Source of the DNA: Bradyrhizobium ottawaense
GTDB lineage: Bacteria; Pseudomonadota; Alphaproteobacteria; Rhizobiales; Xanthobacteraceae
DNA: 64,000 nucleotides
Reading direction: 5' to 3'
NCBI RefSeq assembly: GCF_900099825.1
Contig: NZ_LT629693.1
Coordinates: 1,054,001-1,118,000 of the forward strand
Shown piece by piece: positions 49,943 to 57,364 of this stretch; position 1 is the stretch's first letter, and every line of letters starts with the position of its first letter. Below the pieces are notes generated by a model. That model was not told where the DNA came from and made no database searches. It worked only from the letters and a program-made list of their open reading frames with translations. Position numbers and translations under genes: made by a program.

Positions 49943-51700
49943 TCACCGCGCGCCGGTGCGATTGGCGTCGTTTGCGGCCGATTTATCCGATGACAGCGAC
50001 GGCGCGGAATCGTTCAGCGCCCTGCTCACGGAAGCGTTATCGGGAGCCGCAGCGGGTGCCGGCGCTTTTTCGCCGGCCGGCTTCGGCGACGCCGCAGCCA
50101 TCGGAACCTGTGGCGCATCGACGACGGCCGTGACCGCGGCGAAGGCGTCGGCCTCGCCTGCCCCGAACAGATCGTCGCGGCCGGGGGCGCCGAGGTCGCG
50201 CGCGGTCTTTGTCAGGATGGCGCGAACATCGTTCGGCTTCAATGCCGGGTTGCGCTCGATGATCAGGGCCGCGATGCCGCTGACATAGGCGGCGGAAAAC
50301 GAGGTGCCCGACGTGATCTGGTATTTCTCGTCCGGCGCGGGCAGGAAAATATCCGCACCGGGGGCTGCGATGGCGATGTGGTTGCCGCGGTTCGACGCCG
50401 CAAACAGCCTGTCCTGCGCGTCGGTGCCGCTGACCGCGATCACGTTCGGATTGGCGGCGGGATAGAGCGGCGGCGACTTGGCTCCGGCATTGCCGGCGGC
50501 GGCAACCAGCAGGATGCCGCGGGCCGCGGTCGCGGCAATGCCGCGCTCGATCATCGGATCCTTCGAGCCGGCAAAGCTCATGTTGACGATCTGCGCGCCG
50601 TGCTCGACCGCATAGTCGAGGCCCTTGAGGATGACATAGGAGTTGCTTTCCGCCGCGCCCGACGCACTGCCGAACGCGCGGATCGCCAGCAGCCGCGCCT
50701 CCGGCGCGCTGCCCATCAGCCGGCCATGCGCCACGATCGCGCCGGCAATGCCGGTGCCGTGGACATGCGGGCCTTCCTTGCTGCCGAGCGCATCAAAACT
50801 GTCGGCGACCGAATTGGCGAGTTCCGGATGTTTGGCGTCGATGCCGGAATCGATCACCGCGATGGTGACGTTCATGCCGCGCGCCAGCGTGTGCGCCTGC
50901 GGCAACCGAAGCTGGGCGACCGCGTATTGTGCGGGATCGCCCTCGGTCAGCGTCTTCTTCTGGTCCTGCAGCACGTAGCGGAAATTGGGCTGCACCGACT
51001 TCACCCTGGTGTCGGCGGCGAACTCCCGCCGCACCGCGTCCGCCGGCCGGCGGTCGATGATGCGGAACAGGCCGACGGTGCCGCCGACCAGCGGGAAATT
51101 CTGCGATGCGATCCGCTCCAGCCCGTGGCTGCGCGCCAGGAGGTCGGCGTCCGCAAGCGACATCGCGCCGTCGATCTCGGCCACGAATTCATTCTGCACC
51201 GTGCGCAGATCGATCGCGGCGGCCGCCGGATTATTGCCCGATCCGCCGCCGCTCTTTTTGGAGGCGACGCCGCTGCCGCCGCCGCTTCCGACAAGGTTCA
51301 ACGGGCGGTCGAAGCATTCGCCGTCCGGACCGCGATTGGCATATTCGCAAACCGGATAGAGGTTGGGTGAATAGCGCAGATACGGCGTGCTCGAGCCGAC
51401 GCCGACAGGGCGGTTCACTCGCATGACCGAGGTGCCGCCGACACCGGCCGGCGGCGTGCGCGCGACGCCGACGGAGTTGACGCCAACGCCGCCGCGGCCC
51501 GCAATGGTTGGGTTGATGCGCGGAGCCACCGTCGGATTGATCGAGGGGATCCGCGAGTCGATGTGGAGGCTCGGCGTGCGCATGATGCTTTGCGCATGAA
51601 CCGTCGCCGTACCGGAAAGCGCGAACGGCAACATAGCCGCAGCCAGAAGCAGCGCCGCGCACCGCGTCATCCTGCGCCAATTCACGCCATCGTCGACCAT
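49943..51700 (-). CDS. Exported S8 (subtilisin-like) serine protease
   Basis: A 585-residue secreted protease. A signal peptide (about residues 10-37) is followed by a low-complexity Asn/Pro/Gly region and a Gly/Ser linker. Next comes a propeptide-like domain (about 170-245: FVAEIDG, GLFRIIDRRP, VKSVQPNFRY), then the subtilase domain with Asp284 in VIDSGID, His314 in HVHGTGIAG, oxyanion Asn in AAGNAG and Ser467 in SGTSFSAA. A Pro/Ala tail closes it. Last gene of the operon sigma - anti-sigma - protease, 50 bases after the anti-sigma. It should act in the periplasm or outside. Start at 51700 chosen; a start ten residues later is possible. Confidence 0.92.
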   Translation of the reverse strand: MVDDGVNWRRMTRCAALLLAAAMLPFALSGTATVHAQSIMRTPSLHIDSRIPSINPTVAPRINPTIAGRGGVGVNSVGVARTPPAGVGGTSVMRVNRPVGVGSSTPYLRYSPNLYPVCEYANRGPDGECFDRPLNLVGSGGGSGVASKKSGGGSGNNPAAAAIDLRTVQNEFVAEIDGAMSLADADLLARSHGLERIASQNFPLVGGTVGLFRIIDRRPADAVRREFAADTRVKSVQPNFRYVLQDQKKTLTEGDPAQYAVAQLRLPQAHTLARGMNVTIAVIDSGIDAKHPELANSVADSFDALGSKEGPHVHGTGIAGAIVAHGRLMGSAPEARLLAIRAFGSASGAAESNSYVILKGLDYAVEHGAQIVNMSFAGSKDPMIERGIAATAARGILLVAAAGNAGAKSPPLYPAANPNVIAVSGTDAQDRLFAASNRGNHIAIAAPGADIFLPAPDEKYQITSGTSFSAAYVSGIAALIIERNPALKPNDVRAILTKTARDLGAPGRDDLFGAGEADAFAAVTAVVDAPQVPMAAASPKPAGEKAPAPAAAPDNASVSRALNDSAPSLSSDKSAANDANRTGAR

Positions 51701-51750
51701 GGGACCTCGGCTTACTCGGGCGCGCAATTCGGTTTTCGGGCTTGCCCGCG

Positions 51751-52464
51751 TTACGGTGTCGCCACCGCAAGACTGACGATCTTCTCACCCTGCAGCCTGT
51801 TCATCAGGCTTGCGACTTCGTCCTTGCCCATCGCCTTGCTGCCGAATTGCAGCCGGAACATGCCGCCCTTGGCGCCGTCGACGATCGAGGCCTGATAGGT
51901 GTCGAGCAGCGCCGTGATGTCGGCAATGCGCGCTTCCGGCGCAAACCGCACCAGCGCGCGCGGCGGCGCGATCGAACTGCCGAGATCGCGGGTAATGGGA
52001 CCGGAAGAAGGTTCGTTCAGGCTGAGCGAAGCGGTCTGGAACGAAGCGGTCTGGTTCTTGACCAGCACGGCGCCGATCAGGCCGGCCTGCAACAGCAGCG
52101 CCAAAGCGCCGAGACTGGCCGACCAGGCCAGCGTCCGCGGCGACAGGCTTGCAAAGAATTCGGAAACCCGCGCGGAAAGATTGACCGACGCCGACGGCTT
52201 GCGCACGGGCTCTCCGTCGATCGCGGCGAACAGCTTGGCCATGGCGCGCGCGGACGGCGCACCGAGGCTCTCGTTGAGGTGAATGGTCTCGGCGTATTCC
52301 TCGCGGATCACGGCGTATTGCCGGGCAAGCTCGGGATCGCTGGCCAGCGCTTCGTCGACACGGCGCACATCGCGTGCGTTCAAGGTGCCGGCCGCATGGA
52401 ACGGCAACAGCAACTCGATTTCGCTGGGCTCTTGATCCAGCATTTTCTTGCTCGCTGCCATCAT
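51751..52464 (-). CDS. Membrane anti-sigma factor with I9-like periplasmic domain
   Basis: A 237-residue bitopic protein. The N-terminal cytoplasmic part (residues 12-65) has the helical anti-sigma pattern (LLLPFHAAGTLNARDVRRVDEAL, in part) without a zinc HxxxCxxC motif. One membrane helix lies at about 112-135. The outer C-terminal domain (168-235) reads strand-helix-strand-helix-strand (ALVRFAP, ITALLDTYQ, GMFRLQF, EVASLMNRL, KIVSLAV), which resembles subtilase propeptides/inhibitor I9. ATGA overlap with the sigma gene. It should hold the sigma factor inactive at the membrane. The fold comparison is by eye. Confidence 0.8.
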   Translation of the reverse strand: MMAASKKMLDQEPSEIELLLPFHAAGTLNARDVRRVDEALASDPELARQYAVIREEYAETIHLNESLGAPSARAMAKLFAAIDGEPVRKPSASVNLSARVSEFFASLSPRTLAWSASLGALALLLQAGLIGAVLVKNQTASFQTASLSLNEPSSGPITRDLGSSIAPPRALVRFAPEARIADITALLDTYQASIVDGAKGGMFRLQFGSKAMGKDEVASLMNRLQGEKIVSLAVATP

Positions 52465-53108
52465 GGCCAACCTCGCTCTATGCCGACTGCTTTGAGGAGT
52501 TCGGCCAATTTCTTGCGCGCATAAAACAGGCGCGTCTTCACGGTGTTCTCCGGAATGCCCACGATCTCGGCCACTTCTTCCACGGACTTCTCGTGGTAGT
52601 AGACGAGATCGACGATCTCCCGGTGCTCTGGCGAAAGCGCGGTCATGCACTTGCGCAACGCTTCACTCGTATCTTTCTTCTGCGCCACCACTTCCGGATC
52701 GTCGGACGTGTCCTCGATCGCGTTCGCGGTCTCGTCGTCCAGTCCAACGTCCTTGCGACGCCGCAGCGCCGACAGGGCCTTGAACCGCGTAATCGCCAGC
52801 AGCCAGGTGGTAACGGCGGATCGGCCTTCGAACTTGCCAGCCTGACGCCATACATCGAGAAAAACCTCGCTGATGAGGTCTTCCGCAACCTGTTCGTCCC
52901 TGACGAGCCGAAGCCCGAAACGGAACACCCTGACATGGTGCCTTCCGTACAGCACCTGCATCGCGAGCCGGTCGCCTTGAGCGATCCGAGCGATCAGAAC
53001 TTCGTCTGAAGCCGCCTGTGTCGCACTCAATGGCCGTCTCGCAAGGTTGGTCGGATGGGGGAGGCTGGCGGTTCGACGGGGGAAGCAAGATTCTTCACAA
53101 TACGGCAA
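52461..53108 (-). CDS. ECF sigma factor (sigma-70 family)
   Basis: An RNA polymerase sigma factor of the ECF class, up to 215 residues. Region 2 spans VLYGRHHVRVFRFGLRLVRDEQVAEDLISEVFLDVWRQ (cited in part) and region 4 LSPEHREIVDLVYYHEKSVEEVAEI followed by IPENTVKTRLFYARKKL. The exact start is unclear: no ATG precedes region 2, so a TTG at 53108 or further inside must be used. It is coupled to the anti-sigma by an ATGA and is probably released when the anti-sigma is inactivated. Target promoters unknown. Confidence 0.9.
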   Translation of the reverse strand: MPYCEESCFPRRTASLPHPTNLARRPLSATQAASDEVLIARIAQGDRLAMQVLYGRHHVRVFRFGLRLVRDEQVAEDLISEVFLDVWRQAGKFEGRSAVTTWLLAITRFKALSALRRRKDVGLDDETANAIEDTSDDPEVVAQKKDTSEALRKCMTALSPEHREIVDLVYYHEKSVEEVAEIVGIPENTVKTRLFYARKKLAELLKAVGIERGWP

Positions 53109-53261
53109 TGTCCGGATTGCATGTGTGATCTACCCCACATAAGCGGATTTACCGGCACGGGTGCCGGCGTAAACGGACGAAATCCCCAAATTGGTACCAT
53201 AATACGGAAATACTTTCCTAAAGCTGGCGCCATCAGCGGCGACCTTACCAAGGCTTGGGTC

Positions 53262-55822: not shown

Positions 55823-56467
55823 TCAAAACCTGAGTACCCTCGATCCGGCGAGAGCCCCAATCGCCGTCACCAGTGCGGTCGAGAGCGTGTACCAGGTCGC
55901 CACGAACAGCGGTGAATCGTCCGTGCAATGCGATGCGTAGAGCGTCGCCGCCAGGCCCGCCGAGGCGAGGCCGGCGATGGCGCCGGCAATGGCCGGCCGC
56001 GCCGTCGCACCCTGGCGCAGGCCGATCAGCGCGCCGGCCAGCAAGGGCAATGACATCAGCGGAATGGCGCACATGCAGGCCCGCGAATTGTTGCCGACCA
56101 GCCGTGTCATGACAGGCAACCGCTGCGGCATCATCATCTCGCCGCCAATTCCCGCGGTGAGAATCCCGGCCGGGATCAGCAGCAGCCAGCCAAAGCCCCG
56201 CAGCGAGGCTTCCGGCCGCGACAGATGCAGACTGACGGCGATCGCAGCAGCCGCCAGCGCCAATGTCACCGCGAATTTCAGATCGAAGAACGGGTTGCGC
56301 ATCGCGGTCATCACGTCCGGCCTGATGCCGAGTTCGGTGAAGAACATCAGCAGCGAGACCGGCGCCGCAGCGAGCAGCGCCAGCATCAGCGCGTAGCCGA
56401 CCGGGCGCGCACGGTGTGCGTTGTCGGCCGCGAGCGTTCGAATGAGCTGATCGGTATCCATTCTCAT
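55823..56467 (-). CDS. NrsF (DUF1109) family anti-sigma factor
   Basis: A 214-residue membrane protein with six hydrophobic segments. This is the NrsF/DUF1109 family, which inhibits SigF-type ECF factors in Caulobacter and relatives (OsrA plays this role in Bradyrhizobium). Conserved cysteines are seen in the CMC pair of the segment-4 region and in SHCTDDSP near the C-terminus; in studied members such cysteines respond to oxidants or metals. ATGA overlap with the sigma gene ensures matched synthesis. The usual targets (methionine sulfoxide reductase and DoxX/DUF692 genes) are not next to it. Confidence 0.9.
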   Translation of the reverse strand: MRMDTDQLIRTLAADNAHRARPVGYALMLALLAAAPVSLLMFFTELGIRPDVMTAMRNPFFDLKFAVTLALAAAAIAVSLHLSRPEASLRGFGWLLLIPAGILTAGIGGEMMMPQRLPVMTRLVGNNSRACMCAIPLMSLPLLAGALIGLRQGATARPAIAGAIAGLASAGLAATLYASHCTDDSPLFVATWYTLSTALVTAIGALAGSRVLRF

Positions 56468-57009
56468 TGTTCCCGTAACTTCGCCGTCAGGCTGGTCAGC
56501 CCGCGGTGCAGCGCCACCCGCACCGCACCTTCGCTCATCGAAAATTTCGCCGCCGTATCCTTGATCGAGGCGCTGTCGACCGCGATCGACTGCAGCACGT
56601 CGCGCTGGCGGGCCGGCAACGACTGCAGTTGCGCGGCGACCTCGCTCGCCGAAGCCGTCTCGACCGGCGTCTCGCCGGGAAGCACCTCGGCGAAATCGTC
56701 GATATCGACGAAGATGCGCCGGCCGCGGCGGCGCAGCGCATCGATCAGCTTGTTGCGGGCGATCGCAAACAGCCACGGGGCAAACGGGGCGCTGGCGTCC
56801 CAGGTGTGCCGCTTCAAATGGACCGCCAGCAAAATGTCCTGCACGATGTCCTCGGATTGATCGACCGGTTGTCCTGCCCGCGCCAAACCACGACGCGCCG
56901 CCGCGCGGAGCACCGGCGTGACGGCCTTGAGCAGGCGATGATACGCCGCACTATCGCCTGCGATGGCCGACCGCATCAGGCCGGTCCATTCGTCATCCCG
57001 TTCGCGCAC
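56464..57009 (-). CDS. ECF sigma factor (SigF-like, paired with NrsF)
   Basis: A 181-residue ECF sigma factor. Region 2 is seen in DIVQDILLAVHLKRHTWDASAPFAPWLFAIARNKLIDALRR (cited in part), region 4 in LPARQRDVLQSIAVDSASIKDTAAKF plus MSEGAVRVALHRGL. It matches the SigF/EcfF group that answers oxidative or metal stress. The GTG at 57009 is preferred because GGAG lies six bases upstream and the product then begins like relatives (RERDDEWTGLM). Its own candidate promoter lies just upstream. Confidence 0.9.
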   Translation of the reverse strand: MRERDDEWTGLMRSAIAGDSAAYHRLLKAVTPVLRAAARRGLARAGQPVDQSEDIVQDILLAVHLKRHTWDASAPFAPWLFAIARNKLIDALRRRGRRIFVDIDDFAEVLPGETPVETASASEVAAQLQSLPARQRDVLQSIAVDSASIKDTAAKFSMSEGAVRVALHRGLTSLTAKLREQ

Positions 57010-57028
57010 GCGCGCTCCTACCCTGCAA

Positions 57029-57053
57029 TTCGGTCGATCTTTCAAATTGTTAC
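57029..57053 (-). promoter_or_regulatory. Candidate SigF-type autoregulatory promoter
   Basis: On the minus strand GTAACA (57053-57048) and CGAA (57032-57029) are separated by 15 bases, close to the GTAAC-N16-CGAA pattern of SigF-type ECF promoters. It is 20 bases upstream of the sigma start. Autoregulation is common for ECF factors. Confidence 0.45.
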
Positions 57054-57065
57054 ATCGGAAGCCGT

Positions 57066-57085
57066 GGATCACGAAGTCGTGATCC
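57066..57085. repeat. Perfect 9-base inverted repeat upstream of the sigma promoter
   Basis: GGATCACGA (57066-57074), AG, TCGTGATCC (57077-57085). It lies 13 bases upstream of the candidate -35 element, where an activator or repressor could bind. The remaining gap up to 57364 has no supported gene. Confidence 0.6.
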
Positions 57086-57364
57086 AAAGCCCCGCGTCAA
57101 AGACCCGGGCACGGCCATCCCGGAATCGGGACCGCCAGCCTGGAGACCGGCAGGCTCATACCATCGATTGCCCCCGCTCGCACCCGTGGCCGCGGCCTTC
57201 GCGCTGTCGCGGAAAATCCGCCCGGCGAAAAATGCCGCGCGCCGCAACGGCGTTGCCCTGCTTTTGCCCAGTGTTGCCCGAAGATTCCCTTTTTCTGCCG
57301 CGCTGCGGACACGCGGCGAGGTCTCATTTCGCCATCGGGAGCGGGCAAATGGGGAGATTGCCAA

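Follow-up and report, generated by a model that had tools for sequence, protein, structure and literature searches.

Why is an exported subtilisin-like protease encoded beside an extracytoplasmic function (ECF) sigma factor and its membrane anti-sigma factor, and could it operate the switch that the other two form? The question is raised by a minus-strand trio at positions 49943-53108 of a 64,000-nucleotide stretch of Bradyrhizobium ottawaense contig NZ_LT629693.1 (hereafter the window), consisting of an ECF sigma factor, a membrane anti-sigma factor and an exported S8 subtilase. The overlap of the sigma stop and the anti-sigma start in an ATGA, pointed out in an earlier reading made from the letters alone (the sequence-only reading), is located at 52461-52464, and the 50-base gap that it placed before the protease gene separates the anti-sigma stop at 51751 from the S8 start codon, ATG 51700. 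The sigma factor matches PRK12515 (6.1e-104, NCBIfam); the TTG at 53108 marks no more than the mechanical start of its open reading frame (ORF), and since several Bradyrhizobium relatives have sigma ORFs of 189 residues and residue 28 is the first that the NCBIfam match covers, translation probably starts at TTG 53030. The anti-sigma domain gives sub-threshold matches only (NF052375 at 7.1e-07, 29.5 bits against a cut-off of 100; PF13490 at 0.077), and some relatives among the 120 matches listed carry the source name anti-sigma factor RsiW; the single membrane helix and outer domain ascribed to this protein agree with one hydrophobic stretch, predicted by hydropathy only, at residues 117-135. 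The protease matches PF00082 at 2e-46 and has both the Asp/His/Ser triad and the subtilisin fold of peptidase family S8, with Asp293, His323 and Ser476 in columns invariant across 48 aligned sequences. The three-gene order is more than chance: the protease is the sole PF00082 match across the 8.34-Mb genome, and the same arrangement is found again in at least two classes.

Sequence comparisons suggest that the operon-adjacent protease flips the sigma switch. We propose, with a confidence just short of an even chance, that a pseudo-prodomain tail on the anti-sigma factor recruits the operon's S8 protease, which then makes the first cut in the anti-sigma factor itself. The anti-sigma factor would keep the sigma factor in the cytoplasm while its periplasmic tail captured the mature protease on the latter's prodomain-binding face; the docked protease would stay free to act, since the tail is in most cases too short to occupy the active site, and this protease would cut the anti-sigma factor at a juxtamembrane motif (FQTASL) that imitates its own self-cleavage site. 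With this first cut the membrane stub would become accessible to the proteases that usually follow, intramembrane and cytoplasmic, and the sigma factor would be freed. The S8 protease could in this way take the place of DegS as site-1 protease, with an intramembrane protease and Clp probably still needed after its cut, so that a route distinct from RseP/DegS, as first suggested, is at best half likely. More tentatively still, the anti-sigma factor may be a pseudo-zymogen, carrying a copy of the prodomain and, on the membrane side, an imitation self-cleavage site, with both sites co-evolving and the specificity of maturation reused as a trigger.

The anti-sigma tail is related to the subtilase prodomain but is not itself one. 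A profile of the last 85 residues of 42 anti-sigma factors and one of the prodomain regions of 42 neighbouring proteases align over 68 columns with P 7.6e-6 and a probability of 84%; five control segments (four S8 catalytic, one anti-sigma domain) gave P 0.047-0.68 and 0.1-1.1%. At E ≤ 1, PF22148, the fervidolysin-type subtilase prodomain, is matched by 11 of the 42 tails (best 4.4e-6) and 22 of the 42 prodomains (best 9.8e-8). Furthermore, the prodomain profile finds its best match inside the tail in 40 of the 43 anti-sigma factors matched out of 50 given (40% expected by length), and the best matches of the tail profile to the operons' S8 proteins fall in the prodomain region in 19/26 cases (24% expected). 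The AlphaFold2 model of the tail has the β-α-β-β-α-β order of the ferredoxin-like PF22148 fold, with a pLDDT (predicted local distance difference test score) of 83, and the protease's own prodomain, described earlier as a propeptide-like domain of similar order, is modelled with that same succession of elements. Taken with the profile alignment and the common PF22148 matches, this upholds the proposed relationship between the anti-sigma tail and subtilase prodomains, although PF22148 domains are part of an S8 chain, normally ahead of its catalytic domain, and are cleaved off, whereas the tail forms the C-terminus of an anti-sigma factor. A sequence search of the PDB with the tail profile returned nothing related, and the prodomain profile gave weak rows only, among them a subtilisin-like protease and the PC1 prodomain at E 0.26.

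Prodomains of this type also occur in other contexts. A genome search with a profile of the distant anti-sigma factors reached, in addition, S8 proteins (L276-L278) and small stand-alone proteins (L279, L280); L276, L278 and both L280 proteins were scanned with Pfam and all match PF22148, only L278 above the cut-off. The best of two PF22148 stretches in L278 (1211-3589; 3.5e-22) is C-terminal, at residues 709-784, after the S8 catalytic domain. The small stand-alone protein of L280 (2057-4044; 6.4e-4, under the cut-off) has by eye a lipoprotein-like N-terminus, is encoded directly upstream of an S8 gene and may be a free inhibitor of the propeptide type.

The last residues of a subtilase prodomain fill the active site, and those of I9 inhibitors fill its subsites. 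Of 50 anti-sigma tails, 38, the window's and 37 of the 49 others, end before this active-site-filling (P1-equivalent) position; the window's tail thus lacks the active-site-filling C-terminal residues of MEROPS family I9, and because most tails end so early their likely role seems to us closer to docking than to plugging. By analogy, PDB entry 3a3o, by its title subtilisin complexed with a propeptide minus the last five residues, suggests that a propeptide piece without its end can still bind a subtilase. Neither this early end of the tail, ahead of where the protease has its cleavage stretch, nor the juxtamembrane motif at residues 142-147 had featured in the sequence-only reading.

The linkage between tail and S8 gene is old. 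Relatives of the anti-sigma factor were found in 36 of 150 genomes of the order, the window's own included, and in 45 of 398 genomes of the phylum, and a profile of the distant members matched 80 of 337 genomes of the class and 82 of 321 in another class of the phylum (that of genome G289), many of the matches in these two classes being to the anti-sigma domain alone. In a table of 117 loci drawn from these searches, from which two without an anti-sigma ORF and six unassessable at contig ends were set aside, an S8 gene lies within 3 kb of 70 of the 79 tail-bearing anti-sigma loci as against 7 of the 30 without a detected tail (Fisher p 1e-10, a value that ignores relatedness, several rows coming from one genus). 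All seven S8-bearing loci without a detected tail were counted as negative, even though three (L249, L251, L252) seem by eye to have a divergent tail and L184 is cut before the tail; with short flanks for 20 control loci the table gave p 0.05, and longer flanks were then taken for those 20. The conserved three-gene linkage expected of relatives is hence borne out beyond the window's order, in at least two classes. The S8 gene is mostly downstream, but stands upstream of the sigma gene in L165 and L166, and the anti-sigma gene is on the opposite strand in L174 and L275. In the S8 proteins of L171 and L177 the oxyanion-hole AAGN reads AAFDPS or GAVPPD, so that the asparagine seems replaced while Asp, His and Ser are kept.

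We inspected the neighbours of three of the nine tail-bearing loci without a nearby S8 gene (L262, L265, L266) and of L268, outside the table. L262 has carAB next to it (L263 and L264 belong to the same family, f358), and in L266 the next large ORF is a radical SAM gene. In L265 (1961-3978) a gene of the caspase family (C14) that includes a Sel1 repeat begins 14 bases downstream of the tail-bearing anti-sigma gene, and this one locus suggests that proteases other than S8 can be paired with the receptor. Two genomes, G828 (L267, L268) and G1031 (L262, L269), each encode two tail-bearing anti-sigma factors, one with an adjacent S8 gene and one without, raising the question of whether one protease serves two switches.

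Between helix and tail most relatives carry a motif of roughly [FY]-x-[TL]-[AL]-[SG], whose first residue is aromatic in 40 of 50 clades. It starts 5-18 residues past the predicted helix (31 clades), a distance whose variability disfavours signal peptidase as its cutter by the rule usually applied to that enzyme, and a linker of median 9.5 residues (range 5-22) joins it to the tail. The motif resembles a stretch of roughly [YF]-x-L-[QS]-x that follows the last prodomain strand of the S8 protease, at a distance of 8 residues in 48 of 50 clades, and is the putative self-cleavage site (YVLQ↓D in the window). When S8-site profiles were built with each clade left out in turn, the anti-sigma motif ranked first in 14 of 31 clades (0.3 expected); with only aromatic starts considered and the aromatic unscored, it still ranked first in 13 of 29, where 5.0 would be expected.

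There is moderate evidence from the alignments that the motif and its partner's putative cleavage site vary together. The starting set of 131 operons was reduced to 129 by removing L184, truncated at a contig end, and L194, whose anti-sigma factor is of another type; one of the 129 has a gap at the site column. Across the first 31 clades, the similarity of each motif to its own partner's site exceeded that in shuffled pairings with p 0.0012 in the first alignment and 0.0025 on re-alignment. From 40 further loci (L262-L301) we kept 32, as L276-L280 are not sigma/anti-sigma loci and the tail went undetected in L299-L301; 23 of these had an S8 gene and, with four near-duplicates dropped, contributed 19 added clades. 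Their pairs were seen by eye before the formal test, which used the same statistic as for the first set and sites placed by automatic alignment, with apparently misaligned sites (L270, and the S8 site of L142) retained; own-partner similarity in this set reached z 4.56, matched by 0 of 20,000 shuffles. Nine position sets were scored in the co-variation test, and P2' alone shows nothing. Pairs of protease site and motif that match well include FATLTH/YTTLTS, FRPAGN/YQPAGI, YRPMGL/YQPLGA and LEAAST/LVAASG; YRLQGE/ITPLAG and YGLHQG/PTTAKI match poorly. In a scan of paired alignment segments the site pair ranked 3rd of 44,486 (z 5.2), with in-register neighbours 2nd and 6th, and in a first scan over the 31 original clades it ranked 2/397 and 2/118. 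The signal was kept when shuffling was confined to taxonomic groups (z 4.5), and was then carried by two sets of 15 clades each, one belonging to the class but not the order (z 4.46) and the other to the phylum but not the class (z 2.63).

Several observations weigh against recruitment and cutting by the operon protease, and leave both the likeness of the two sites and their co-variation only partly supported. The likeness owes much to the common aromatic: when all positions are considered and the aromatic is left out, the motif's median rank is only in the top 20%. An unrelated pair of segments heads the segment-pair scan (5.48) and others reach 4.7-4.8, while two off-register neighbours of the site pair score 2.6 and 3.2. 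In the 20 clades of the window's own order the co-variation is not significant (z 0.96, p 0.18), nor is it under the strictest relatedness control, in which partners are exchanged with the closest relative (25 comparisons for and 18 against, p 0.18). The homology, too, has its weak sides: the window's own tail and prodomain matched no Pfam family, and the tail profile matches the operons' S8 proteins weakly (best E 0.023). Ferredoxin-like folds are widespread, and unrelated domains (ribosomal S6, ACT, Lrp, NikR) scored as well as propeptides did, which led us to reject the fold alone as proof of kinship; since it has no discriminating power, the sequence profiles decide. Finally, the S8 model departs from the pro-subtilisin layout (root-mean-square deviation 19 Å over 379 columns), and as its own prodomain is not placed as in pro-subtilisin, docking could not be read off it and the docking face is only assumed.

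The chief rival is that the tail is a tethered inhibitor or chaperone, which holds and silences the protease at the membrane while the uncut anti-sigma factor senses how much of the protease is free or occupied, the tail working like a stand-alone I9 inhibitor or folding helper. Prodomains do usually inhibit their own protease and help it to fold (compare PMC6993865, PMC10580911), the same tail homology and S8 linkage fit this account equally, and the 12 of 50 tails that are long enough to reach the active site speak for it and against a free docked protease. We nevertheless consider it unlikely, if by no means fanciful, for most tails, the window's among them, end short of the position they would have to fill, and neither the conserved juxtamembrane motif nor its resemblance to the putative self-cleavage site is explained. 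Less probable again is ancestry without contact, whereby a prodomain-derived tail has turned to dimerisation or to a different ligand, with the protease no more than a regulated product of the operon. The nine of 79 tail-bearing loci without a nearby S8 gene, including the one with the caspase-family gene, count for it and against our proposal, as does the non-significant outcome of the strict co-variation control; the S8 linkage, held across at least two classes despite changes in gene order and strand, and the co-variation in the added clades argue the other way. That the motif is cut by another protease, be it signal peptidase, which makes the site-1 cut in RsiP (PMC8844934), or a DegS-type enzyme, with the S8 protease a downstream effector, seems very improbable, for although the motif's small residues fit loosely, its spacing from the helix varies too much for signal peptidase, and co-variation with the partner's S8 site would not be expected of a generic protease.

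The features of the operon are collected in Table 1. Upstream of it, the palindrome TGTGGGGTAGATCACA is one that we take to be CRP/FNR-like, and the block TCCGTATTATGGTACC is a possible promoter element, of which the genome holds one exact copy, the operon's own, and two more with one mismatch; for this reason a guess at a regulon based on it was dropped. About 3 kb upstream on the same strand lies a second pair (55826-57087), an ECF sigma gene at 56467-57087, minus strand, followed by an NrsF-type anti-sigma gene (PF06532, 9.1e-55), and several Bradyrhizobium loci have a further sigma ORF at a similar distance from the operon.

Table 1. Features of the sigma/anti-sigma/S8 operon and its upstream region, in window coordinates
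Feature	Position	Strand	Basis
Conserved upstream block TCCGTATTATGGTACC, possible promoter element	53193..53208	-	Alignment of relatives' loci
Presumed CRP/FNR-like palindrome TGTGGGGTAGATCACA, upstream of operon	53124..53139	-	Largely kept in aligned Bradyrhizobium loci
ECF sigma factor, PRK12515 subfamily, probable 189-residue form from TTG 53030	52461..53030	-	Family match and relatives' ORF lengths
Membrane anti-sigma factor, 237 residues	51751..52464	-	ORF, adjacency to sigma
Cytoplasmic anti-sigma domain, residues 1-105 (approximate)	52150..52464	-	Sub-threshold NF052375, PF13490; conserved LLPWY..GTL block
Predicted transmembrane helix, residues 117-135	52060..52116	-	Hydropathy only
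Conserved juxtamembrane motif FQTASL, residues 142-147, proposed site-1 cleavage site	52024..52041	-	Conservation, S8-site likeness, co-variation
Pseudo-prodomain tail, residues 168-237	51754..51963	-	Profile homology, predicted fold
Exported S8 subtilase from ATG 51700	49943..51700	-	PF00082 match
Signal peptide, ORF residues 10-45, ends VHA	51593..51700	-	By inspection
Protease's own prodomain, ORF residues 176-249	50981..51202	-	β-α-β-β-α-β in model; relatives match PF22148
Putative self-cleavage site YVLQ↓D, ORF residues 251-255	50963..50977	-	Position at prodomain end, conserved spacing
S8 catalytic domain, ORF residues 267-527; Asp293, His323, Ser476	50147..50929	-	PF00082, alignment

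Among known systems the nearest analogy to the proposed switch is that of SPRING and the subtilase S1P, in which a partner licenses a subtilase for the first cut that frees a membrane-held transcription factor: according to PMC11231238, SPRING displaces the inhibitory prodomain of S1P, thereby licensing the first of the two cuts that release membrane-bound SREBP, and itself holds an S1P cleavage site. That system is eukaryotic and its cofactor and substrate are separate, whereas here the proposed mimic would reside within the anti-sigma factor and is homologous to the prodomain; displacement of the prodomain is a feature of SPRING and for the anti-sigma tail only putative. POIA1, solved with subtilisin (1v5i, by its title), and the propeptide-like inhibitor of malaria SUB1 (PMC6993865) are, like the tail, prodomain-type proteins encoded apart from the subtilase, but they are inhibitors, while the tail is fused to a membrane anti-sigma factor and mostly lacks the active-site stretch. 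The RseA/DegS/RseP and RsiV/RsiP routes share with our proposal the ordered proteolysis of a membrane anti-sigma factor from outside the cytoplasm; the available portions of their descriptions (PMC8103513, PMC4183432, PMC8844934) mention neither an operon-encoded subtilase nor a prodomain-like outer domain, both of which are present here. ECF54 sigma factors also have conserved subtilase-domain neighbours but are proposed to act without an anti-sigma factor (PMC8999054), which the present operon has. RpoE6 (ECF26) of Sinorhizobium meliloti is another rhizobial ECF sigma factor adjoining a serine protease gene, one that it activates; that gene is divergent, and the accessible text leaves its family unstated and describes no prodomain-like tail (PMC6180224). 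Text searches of the literature, several of them confined to the best 10 to 20 of tens to hundreds of matches and with most subscription papers and the 2021 ECF reclassification outside their scope, gave no description, among the papers listed, of a prodomain-like anti-sigma tail or of an operon S8 protease acting on an anti-sigma factor, and that reclassification may well already note the S8 neighbour.

The site-1 protease and the signal have yet to be assigned for many membrane anti-sigma factors; in the present operon, gene order, a common domain and a matching site allow a candidate protease, a candidate receptor domain and a candidate cut site to be named together. If the pseudo-zymogen reading is true, the cell would read out the completed maturation of an exported protease. 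More broadly, recruitment and cutting by the operon protease, if true, would provide a bacterial counterpart to the prodomain displacement of human S1P signalling and a modular means of coupling a maturing protease to transcription, and the proteobacteria that have the system belong to two classes or more.

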